A stretch of 64,000 bases of DNA from Saprospiraceae bacterium (lineage in GTDB: Bacteria > Bacteroidota > Bacteroidia > Chitinophagales > Saprospiraceae), in assembly GCA_016787415.1 (NCBI GenBank), contig JAEUUT010000228.1, forward strand, positions 1 through 64,000, read 5' to 3'. The number at the start of each line of letters is the position of its first letter. The first letter of the stretch is position 1. Below the pieces are notes generated by a model. The model had not been told where the DNA came from. It saw nothing but the letters and a program-made list of their open reading frames with translations, and ran no database searches. Made by a program: the position numbers and the translations under genes. Below, one piece after another: positions 9,298 through 12,382 of this stretch.

Positions 9298-11493
9298 ATG
9301 TTCCATTCCTTCAAGCCTTTCGGCAAATTTGATCCTGACAAATTCTTATTGGATATGAAATTAAAATCGTCCATCCTGCTGTTCTCCTTTGTAGGCATTG
9401 CAGGCCTCGCGATATTTACGGGAGCGCTCCGTCCTTTCGGCCAGCCAGAACCCAACCCTCAGAAAGAAGCCGCGCTGATGCGCGCCCTGTTGCAAGGCCT
9501 CGATCGCCTGCACTTCCAGCCGAAAGCCATCGACGACGCGTTCTCTAAAGAAGTATATGCCCTTTACCTGAAGGACATCGACAACAGCAAACGGCTCTTT
9601 ACACAAGACGACATTAACCTGTTGAAACCGTACGAGATGCAACTCGACGACCAGGCCAATGCCGGTACCTTCGAGTTTTTTAACCTCTCGCTGCAACTGT
9701 TCGACAAGGCCCTACCCAAAACACAAGCCTGGTACCAGGAAATCCTTTCCAAACCTATGGATTTCAGCAAAAATGAACTGCTGGAAACCGAAGGCGACAA
9801 ACTCCAGTGGGCAAAAGACGATACCGAACTACGCAGCCGCTGGGAAAAATGGCTGAAATTCGAAGTGCTCAGCCGCATCGTCGAGGAAGAACAAAAACAG
9901 GAAAAAGCCGACTTCAAAGGTGAAAAGAAAACCACCGCGCAACTCGAAGAGGACATGCGCAAAAAGGTGCTCGACACCTACGAAAAACGGCAAAAGCAAA
10001 TCCTGAAAATGGATCGCACACGCCGCCTGGAAGTGTACCTGAACGCCATTACCAACGTGTTTGATCCGCACACCGGCTACTTCTCGCCGCGTGAAAAAGA
10101 AAACTTCGACATCCAGATGTCGGGCAAACTCGAAGGCATCGGCGCTCGCCTGCAAAGCGACGGCGAAAAAACCACCGTTACCGAAATTGTACCCGGCGGC
10201 CCGGCCTGGAAAGAAGGTACGCTGCAACCCAAAGACGTGATCCTGAAAGTAGCACAAGGCACTACCGATGCCGAATCTGTAGATGTGATGGGCTGGGAAA
10301 TCGACGACGTGGTCAGCAAAATTCGCGGCCCGAAAGGTTCCAAAGTGACCCTCTCCGTACGCAAGGCCGATGGCATGGAAAAAACCATCACCATCACCCG
10401 CGACGTGGTGATTATGGAAGAAGGTTTTGCCAAATCGCTGATGCTCAACAGCGGCGACCCGCAAGATAAAGTGGGCTATATTTACCTGCCGAAATTCTAT
10501 GCCGACTTCACTCCGCAGGGCGTTACCTCCTGCGCTGCCGACGTAGCCAAAGAAGTGGAAAAACTGAAAAAAGAAGGCGCTAAAGGTATTATCCTTGACC
10601 TGCGTAACAACGGCGGCGGCTCGCTCCGCGATGTGGTGCAGATGTCGGGACTGTTTATCGAAAACGGCCCCATCGTACAAGTAAAAAGCCGCACCAAAAC
10701 GCCTGAAATCATGTCGGACAACGACCCGCGCGTACAATGGGGCGGCCCGCTGGTAGTGATGGTGAACAGTTTCAGCGCTTCGGCCTCCGAAATCCTCGCC
10801 GCTGCCATGCAGGACTACGGCCGCGCTGTCATCGTCGGTTCTTCCGGCACGTATGGCAAAGGCACTGTACAACGCTTTGTCGACCTCGACAACGCTACAG
10901 GCGACGACTCCGTGAAGCCGCTGGGTGAAATGAAACTGACCATCCAGAAGTTTTACCGCATCACCGGCAAAACCACACAACTGGACGGCGTAACGCCAGA
11001 CATCGTGCTGCCCGACTTCTACAATTTTATCGATTTGGGTGAACGCGAAAACGACTACCCGCTCGCCTCGACCACCATTGATGCTGTACCGTTCAAACAA
11101 AACGCCTACCGCATCAATAACCTGGATAAACTGAAATCGGACAGTGAAGCCCGCGTGAAATCGGACGACACATTCAAAAAAGTGAGCGACAACGCCGTTC
11201 GCCTGCGCAAACAAAAAGATCAGTCGCAGTATCCGCTCCAGCAGGAGAAATACCGCTCCTGGAACAAACGCCAGGACATGGAAGCCGAACAATTCGACAA
11301 CCTGTTCCAGCCGATTAACGGCTTCAATATCGAAAACCTGGCTGCCGATATTCCGCAAATCCAGAGCGACACTTCCCGTATCGCCCGCAACGAAGACTGG
11401 CTGAAAGACAAGAAAAAAGACATCCAACTGTATGAGTCATACCGCATTATGCAGGATATGATCCGGAATACGGTGGCAGTTGGGAAGAATTGA
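9298..11493 (+). CDS. prc: Carboxy-terminal processing protease (Prc/Tsp, peptidase S41)
   Basis: A 731-residue periplasmic tail-specific protease. A membrane anchor or signal at ~22-40 (SSILLFSFVGIAGLAIF) is followed by an N-terminal helical domain, a PDZ domain at ~275-360 (EGIGARLQ...EIVPGGPAWKEG) and the S41 core. The catalytic Ser is S495 in SFSASASEI and the Lys is K521 in TYGKGTVQ, both in the Tsp arrangement. A C-terminal DUF3340-like helical region follows. It degrades or trims envelope proteins from their C-termini. ATG 9355 would give a more typical signal peptide, but the promoter position also permits 9298. It is monocistronic and is followed by a terminator. Confidence 0.93.
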   Translation: MFHSFKPFGKFDPDKFLLDMKLKSSILLFSFVGIAGLAIFTGALRPFGQPEPNPQKEAALMRALLQGLDRLHFQPKAIDDAFSKEVYALYLKDIDNSKRLFTQDDINLLKPYEMQLDDQANAGTFEFFNLSLQLFDKALPKTQAWYQEILSKPMDFSKNELLETEGDKLQWAKDDTELRSRWEKWLKFEVLSRIVEEEQKQEKADFKGEKKTTAQLEEDMRKKVLDTYEKRQKQILKMDRTRRLEVYLNAITNVFDPHTGYFSPREKENFDIQMSGKLEGIGARLQSDGEKTTVTEIVPGGPAWKEGTLQPKDVILKVAQGTTDAESVDVMGWEIDDVVSKIRGPKGSKVTLSVRKADGMEKTITITRDVVIMEEGFAKSLMLNSGDPQDKVGYIYLPKFYADFTPQGVTSCAADVAKEVEKLKKEGAKGIILDLRNNGGGSLRDVVQMSGLFIENGPIVQVKSRTKTPEIMSDNDPRVQWGGPLVVMVNSFSASASEILAAAMQDYGRAVIVGSSGTYGKGTVQRFVDLDNATGDDSVKPLGEMKLTIQKFYRITGKTTQLDGVTPDIVLPDFYNFIDLGERENDYPLASTTIDAVPFKQNAYRINNLDKLKSDSEARVKSDDTFKKVSDNAVRLRKQKDQSQYPLQQEKYRSWNKRQDMEAEQFDNLFQPINGFNIENLAADIPQIQSDTSRIARNEDWLKDKKKDIQLYESYRIMQDMIRNTVAVGKN

Positions 11494-11520: not shown

Positions 11521-11525
11521 GTAGG

Positions 11526-11570
11526 GCGGCTCGCTTCGGAGGGATTCCGGGGCGAGCCGCTTGGTTTTTT
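11526..11570 (+). terminator. Intrinsic terminator of prc
   Basis: gcggctcgc (11526-11534) pairs with gcgagccgc (11552-11560) and encloses a second small stem (cgga/tccg). A T run follows at 11565-11570. Confidence 0.8.
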
Positions 11571-11572
11571 GG

Positions 11573-11731
11573 GGGGAGATTACCATAGGAAAGGTGATCC
11601 ATTTCATAGTGGCGGTTGTTTACACTGTGAGATATGGACTGATAAGGATAATATCTGCCAGACAAGCAAGAAAAAATGAAATCAACAACTACCTTGAAAA
11701 CAAGTTAAATAAGGAAAATAATGAGCAGTAA
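11573..11731 (+). pseudogene. brnT toxin remnant (C-terminal half only)
   Basis: An open frame with no usable start ends at TAA 11729-11731, overlapping the next gene's ATG. It translates as ITIGKVIHFIVAVVYTVRYG and then IRIISARQARKNEINNY. This matches the BrnT family C-terminal strand and the signature RIISAR, including the conserved position just upstream of brnA. The N-terminal half that carries part of the RNase fold is missing; the break falls right after the prc terminator. The match was made by recollection of the family; an HMM search was not possible. Confidence 0.7.
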
Positions 11732-12110
11732 AAAAATGACCTTGGCTGAGGCTCTAACCCTGTTAAGAAGCGGGGAAAAAATGGATAAGTTAACAATTGA
11801 CTTTAAGAAAGGTGATAAAGTCAAAGCACTCGATGCTTTCAAACTTGGCAAGGCAGGTATAATGGTACCCGAGGAGGTAATTGAATATGATGATTCAGAC
11901 ATTGCCTATGATCCAGACTTTGATGACTATGAATGGGTAAGAACAAATACTAACCCTAATAAAACCATTAAAGAAAAACTAACTATTGATATCGAACTGG
12001 AAAAAAATATTCAAATATGGCTTCAGAAGAATAATATAGAGATAAACATTCTCATAGAAAAATTGATCCATGATTTTTACTCGGCAGAACATATTGATGA
12101 GGCAAAATAG
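11721..12110 (+). CDS. BrnA-like antitoxin, orphaned
   Basis: A 129-residue acidic protein. The C-terminal part (~85-120; IKEKLTIDIELEKNIQIWLQ, then a helix ending LIEKLIHDFYSAE) has the strand-helix-helix pattern of a ribbon-helix-helix DNA-binding domain as in BrnA. The central DDSDIAYDPDFDDYEWV resembles the acidic toxin-neutralising linker of BrnA. The N-terminal MTLAEALTLLRSGE extension is unusual and recurs in the decayed copy downstream. The start overlaps the brnT remnant by 11 bp, which is typical of the operon order toxin then antitoxin. The local AT richness differs from the neighbours, suggesting acquisition by transfer. Confidence 0.7.
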   Translation: MSSKKMTLAEALTLLRSGEKMDKLTIDFKKGDKVKALDAFKLGKAGIMVPEEVIEYDDSDIAYDPDFDDYEWVRTNTNPNKTIKEKLTIDIELEKNIQIWLQKNNIEINILIEKLIHDFYSAEHIDEAK

Positions 12111-12176
12111 AAATTTTACGAGCCAGTCAGGATGAAAGACGCATCTATTTGTCTCACAAACTAAAAAACAAAAAAA

Positions 12177-12382
12177 ATGGCGAATCATAAAATATCTGTT
12201 TCGGAAGCACTTCGAAAATTAGAAGCCGGAGAATCTGTTACTAACTTTTCGATTGATTTTGGCCATATTAAAGTGGAAGCCCTTGATGTTATGAGGCCAA
12301 TAATGTTCCTCTTGAACACCTGATAGAACAACTATTGGAAGGGTTTTATCGAACCCAAAAATTACTTTTGGAGAAAATATAG
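12177..12382 (+). pseudogene. Decayed paralogue of the BrnA-like antitoxin
   Basis: The ATG at 12177 opens a 48-residue frame (MANHKISVSEALRKLEAGES, then FSIDFG...KVEALDV) that resembles the start of the preceding antitoxin (MTLAEALTLLRSGE...TIDFKKGDKVKALDA). It stops at 12323. Another frame from ~12299 to 12382 reads NNVPLEHLIEQLLEGFYRTQ, which resembles the antitoxin C-terminus (INILIEKLIHDFY). The acidic linker and part of the RHH strand are gone. This indicates an internal deletion with a frameshift. Confidence 0.65.

Follow-up and report, generated by a model that had tools for sequence, protein, structure and literature searches.

BrnT belongs to the RelE/ParE superfamily and acts as an RNase (PMC11980606), and a lysine and a histidine in its N-terminal half are required for toxicity (PMC10714953, PMC13284704). 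The BrnT/BrnA type II toxin-antitoxin system (PF04365/PF14384; COG2929 with COG5304/COG3514) is the closest described relative of the locus examined here, which shares with it a BrnT toxin that is an RNase by homology, a toxin-first gene order, and an overlapping antitoxin gene. The antitoxins may also have a strand-helix-helix at the C-terminus in common; however, the antitoxin described here lacks a BrnA profile match and carries an N-terminal domain of about 75 residues that is absent from Pfam and NCBIfam. The RelS-RelI system of M. tuberculosis (PMC13284704) likewise combines a BrnT-fold toxin with a non-BrnA antitoxin and places the toxin gene first. RelI contains an HTH and has a different sequence, and RelS is only distantly BrnT-like, whereas the toxin here is a clear PF04365 member. 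Decay that leaves antitoxins without toxins is known from chromosomal modules such as ccdO157 in E. coli (PMC2654758) and from orphan antitoxins (reviewed in PMC7354431). What differs here is that the one-sidedness of decay is counted across a single BrnT module family with many different lesions.

The window, a 64,000-nucleotide stretch of a Saprospiraceae bacterium contig, belongs to a 6.1-Mb draft genome. At 11579-12381 it holds two BrnT-type modules in tandem, with both toxins truncated and one antitoxin gene whole. The locus very probably represents two decayed tandem modules in which the toxin was lost first and an orphan antitoxin was left as a relic. A decayed BrnT locus with an orphan antitoxin had been proposed in the initial annotation, and the BrnT profile match and intact antitoxin reading frame described below bear this out.

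Truncated modules behind prc

The prc gene (9298-11493), which encodes an S41 tail-specific protease, lies directly upstream of the toxin-antitoxin segment and is followed by an intrinsic terminator on the plus strand (11524-11571). This terminator consists of a stem-loop (11524-11562), also present in the sister genome, and a T-run; the terminator scan gives a stem of 18 pairs, and RNA folding gives -32.4 kcal/mol with a z of -4.9. The segment behind it is a sharp-edged island of low G+C (34% versus 51-52% in the flanking genes).

BrnT remnant 1 (11579-11731, plus strand) comprises the C-terminal ~50 codons and stop of a toxin gene. Its open frame from 11579 reads ITIGKVIHFIVAVVYTVRYGLIRIISARQARKNEINNYLENKLNKENNEQ and then the stop. 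In a profile search the frame 11573-11731 matches PF04365, as the initial annotation anticipated, at profile positions 44-77 with an E-value of 3.6e-7 and 30.8 bits. This score is under the 34.5-bit cut-off because the C-terminal half alone is present; the intact relative L005 scores 89.8 bits over its full length. Remnant 1 aligns to residues 48-97 of intact 97-residue BrnTs (L005, L006) with 70-72% identity and a tblastn E-value of ~1e-20. It retains the arginine of the IISAR motif, and its first ~47 codons are absent, including the catalytic Lys-His pair (EKHG in relatives). Without the Lys-His half the product should be inactive, and by its sequence remnant 1 is a remnant of the BrnT family rather than a working member. 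A search of the 6.1-Mb genome returns no BrnT match besides remnant 1.

Antitoxin 1 (11721-12110, plus strand) is an intact open reading frame of 129 residues, 57% identical to the antitoxin behind the intact BrnT in L005, and its start overlaps the end of remnant 1 by 11 nucleotides. It is an orphan, with no toxin remaining elsewhere in its own genome. A frame that stays open over 50 codons and is 70-72% identical to intact toxins could mean that the toxin tail is itself a functional small protein, for example one that acts as a co-repressor or, as a decoy, helps the antitoxin stay folded. This is very improbable, since the tails in relatives vary in length (profile starts from ~28 to 76) or are absent, and remnant 1 has no start codon in a conserved context, the nearest start being a TTG at 11561 within the terminator. 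The overlap offers a geometric reason for survival: because the toxin tail covers the start of the antitoxin gene, an antitoxin that survives will tend to retain the tail in any case.

The missing part of toxin 1 had been placed exactly where the prc terminator begins and attributed to a deletion that fused the locus to the terminator. Truncation did come from the 5′ side and right behind the terminator, but homology to intact BrnTs begins at 11579, past the terminator's end. A deletion is plausible; the order of events is inferred, and an intact BrnT was not found at the prc site in any genome examined.

The second module begins with BrnT remnant 2 (12113-12190, plus strand), a short tail of the last 25 codons and stop that reads ILRASQDERRIYLSHKLKNKKNGES, matches the BrnT profile with an E-value of 0.016, and recurs in the sister locus (L081). 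It overlaps the start of antitoxin 2 at 12177. Antitoxin 2 survives as an N-terminal part (residues 1 to ~39; 12177-12296, plus strand) and a C-terminal part with stop (residues ~98-123; 12293-12381, plus strand); residues ~40-97 are deleted and the two ends are joined out of frame. The two ends are respectively 70% and 65% identical to the L011 antitoxin, and 72% and 85% identical to the sister's intact 124-residue antitoxin, in which the second comparison covers residues 98-123. Judged from these identities, antitoxin 2 belongs to another subtype than antitoxin 1. The initial annotation recognized a broken paralogue of antitoxin 1 here and overlooked its own BrnT tail.

The same genome has a third copy of the antitoxin elsewhere (C30:11602-12022; L003:1501-1930); its subtype differs from those of the other two, and a frameshift lies near its C-terminal half. 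This copy has no BrnT in front and contains 37% G+C compared with 53% in its surroundings.

The sister species (G311) carries at the same prc site the conserved terminator, a short BrnT tail, an intact 124-residue antitoxin, and then the same amine oxidase gene. Its antitoxin is the orthologue of antitoxin 2 and is also without a whole toxin; the type-1 module is lacking. Among 42 genomes of the genus, with loci examined in 30 and several contigs ending soon after prc, the window shares an antitoxin at the prc site only with G311. The sister locus also bears on whether faulty assembly or binning produced the truncated toxin and the second wreck. The genome is a draft of 299 contigs, which leaves room for such errors, but the prc-flanked site of the sister independently holds a BrnT tail and an antitoxin, the genes flanking the segment are intact and syntenic, and similar lesions occur in many genomes. 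An artefact is therefore extremely improbable.

Differences between the type-2 remnants and the sister gene are mostly synonymous (dN 0.145 and dS 0.91 for the N-terminal part), which indicates that the type-2 gene was constrained for much of the time since the split from the sister. DNA identity between the two species is 74-78% for the type-2 gene and 92% for prc, and this gap makes allele exchange at the site possible. The type-2 differences lean toward host-like G+C in the sister (29 versus 8). The type-2 antitoxin contains 49% G+C in the sister (L081, 5834-5463) and 35% in the window remnant (12177-12381), while prc composition is equal in both species.

The antitoxin family and its relation to BrnA

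Antitoxin 1 had been assigned to BrnA, possibly as a distinct subfamily, and this assignment is not supported. The BrnA profile PF14384 matches neither antitoxin 1 nor any of the 22 family members. Profile-profile alignment to real BrnA sequences covers only the C-terminal 59 columns of the family profile, with 19% probability; with a larger alignment the score is above all 60 column-shuffled controls at a probability below 3%. The C-terminal part, possibly a strand-helix-helix, may be a ribbon-helix-helix.

In the 22-member alignment the N-terminal ~75 residues are the best conserved part and end in an acidic motif and Trp-72, whereas the C-terminal half is more variable. The N-terminal extension noted in the initial annotation is thus distinctive and conserved, but the conserved stretch spans ~75 residues and not ~40. 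Pfam, NCBIfam, PADLOC, and PHROGs contain no name for the family, and individual Pfam and NCBIfam models match at most one or two of the 22 members, weakly. An XisI match (E 0.006) was dropped since it is present in one of the 22 members. A sequence search of solved structures with the family profile gave one match, which was judged to be chance. An AlphaFold model built from three sequences is of low confidence (mean pLDDT 69, pTM 0.42), and a PDB fold search with it returned nothing at E ≤1.

Intact homologues, for which the initial annotation had suggested a search, were found. The same antitoxin gene overlaps the ends of intact BrnT genes in relatives. Two public relatives of the 129-residue antitoxin, one of them in Saprospiraceae bacterium DHS20C18, each sit behind an intact 97-residue BrnT gene with a similar overlap. 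In Saprospiraceae, a member of this antitoxin family comes directly after 20 of the 21 intact BrnT genes and overlaps the toxin end; the exception (L054) is an intact BrnT followed by a diverged BrnA-like protein. By gene order and sequence, this family is the partner of BrnT in Saprospiraceae.

Antitoxin relatives occur in 30 of 298 sampled Saprospiraceae genomes (~10%), and a BrnT match in 25. No Saprospiraceae genome among the 298 has a PF14384 match above the cut-off, against 28 of the 198 genomes of a phylum-wide sample; the antitoxin family is absent from the phylum-wide sample except for its own genome. It occurs in one further family of the same order, so that in the samples searched it is restricted to one order. 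A separate antitoxin family that replaces BrnA beside BrnT in Saprospiraceae fits this evidence better than BrnA membership does.

Some relatives are reduced to the N-terminal domain (75-91 residues), which suggests that this domain can stand alone. A bolder reading makes the ~75-residue domain a new fold that neutralises the toxin with no need for the C-terminal part. On that view, the relatives cut short directly behind this domain, and the one fused to a glyoxalase-like domain after an intact BrnT, are minimal antitoxins that work, and the orphans are domesticated immunity to BrnT modules; taken as a whole, this proposal is unlikely, at a chance that is still appreciable.

In L033-L036, a 78-residue protein consisting of the N-terminal domain only, with no toxin, is almost the same in four congeneric species. 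In L006:2992-3606 (= L010), the antitoxin continues after its N-terminal 86 residues into a glyoxalase/VOC domain (PF00903) instead of the C-terminal half, behind an intact BrnT. In L030, an N-terminal-domain-only antitoxin gene is followed by a VOC-like gene.

One-sided decay of BrnT modules

Modules were sorted by how much of the toxin and antitoxin profiles they cover, with sorting and counting by hand; 39 modules retain one or both genes whole. Both genes are intact in 18 of the 39, one of which is the toxin-antitoxin fusion frame of G204:C3. The antitoxin is intact and the toxin broken or gone in 19, including the window and its sister; the toxin lesions comprise internal, 5′, and 3′ deletions, a ~1.2 kb insertion, and frameshifts or stops. 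The converse, an intact toxin with a broken antitoxin, is seen in two modules. One of these (L029) has an early frameshift in the antitoxin and a changed toxin motif, and in the other (L006/L010) the C-terminal half of the antitoxin is swapped for the glyoxalase-like domain.

The imbalance of 19 versus 2 losses gives a sign-test p of 2.2e-4. It becomes 7.3e-4 when three loci of the same genus are counted once, and 5.2e-4 without single frameshifts and stops, some of which may be errors in what are mostly draft assemblies. Loci were retrieved with both toxin and antitoxin queries and the neighbour of each intact toxin was inspected, so the excess of toxin losses does not come from antitoxin-only searching. 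An antitoxin that protects against its toxin would be expected to leave such an excess.

Two of the loci have unusual structures. In L053 (G204:C3:25476-26183, minus strand), BrnT and antitoxin form one continuous frame of 278 residues, either a natural fusion or a start/stop read-through. In L015/L065 (G236:C16:62341-63882), the BrnT gene is split by an insert of ~1.2 kb, the size of an insertion sequence, and the antitoxin behind it is whole.

Relic or retained immunity

The proposed history begins with two tandem type II modules, probably acquired horizontally, that would have entered the genome behind prc in a recent ancestor of the species. In the intact module the toxin gene would come first, with the antitoxin start inside the toxin end; BrnT would act as an RNase, and the antitoxin, a lineage-restricted protein whose N-terminal domain of ~75 residues is conserved and whose C-terminal part may be a ribbon-helix-helix, would neutralise the toxin by binding to it. 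Module 1 would have lost the first ~47 toxin codons, the Lys-His pair among them, in a deletion that reached as far as the prc terminator's end and left the antitoxin whole. In module 2, the toxin would have been cut to 25 codons before the antitoxin middle was lost. The toxin is placed first in both cases because loss of the antitoxin beside a whole toxin would poison the cell. Members of this family presumably neutralise BrnT, and the bias in losses gives this indirect support. Antitoxin 1 is now presumably for the most part a passenger.

Alternatively, selection may have kept the orphan as an anti-addiction gene against the BrnT of incoming elements, with the toxin shed since the antitoxin alone pays. 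For ccd, a chromosomal antitoxin is known to act in anti-addiction (PMC2654758). The orphans in the window and the sister are both full-length, and the type-2 gene has diverged from its sister counterpart chiefly at synonymous sites. In another genus, two orphan antitoxins (dN 0.030, dS 0.296) are as constrained as two paired ones (dN 0.023, dS 0.286). However, this constraint may predate the toxin loss, and the second and third antitoxin copies of the same genome are themselves broken. Searches of plasmids, phages, and viral contigs found no antitoxin relative. A simple scan found no Bacteroidota-type promoter in front of antitoxin 1, and sigma-70-like matches there are not above chance. Retained immunity is thus a serious contender with a chance well short of even, and for the window locus a passive relic is somewhat more likely.

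The relic reading leaves in place an antitoxin family, lineage-restricted and defined from sequence, that is BrnA's substitute beside a widespread RNase toxin. Since the family is unnamed in the profile libraries searched, automatic annotation would probably label the products of its genes hypothetical. Losses that begin with the toxin are in counted excess, which is natural evidence that this unnamed gene is an antitoxin, and the loci collected here provide a test set for telling whether an orphan antitoxin is a passenger or serves in immunity.
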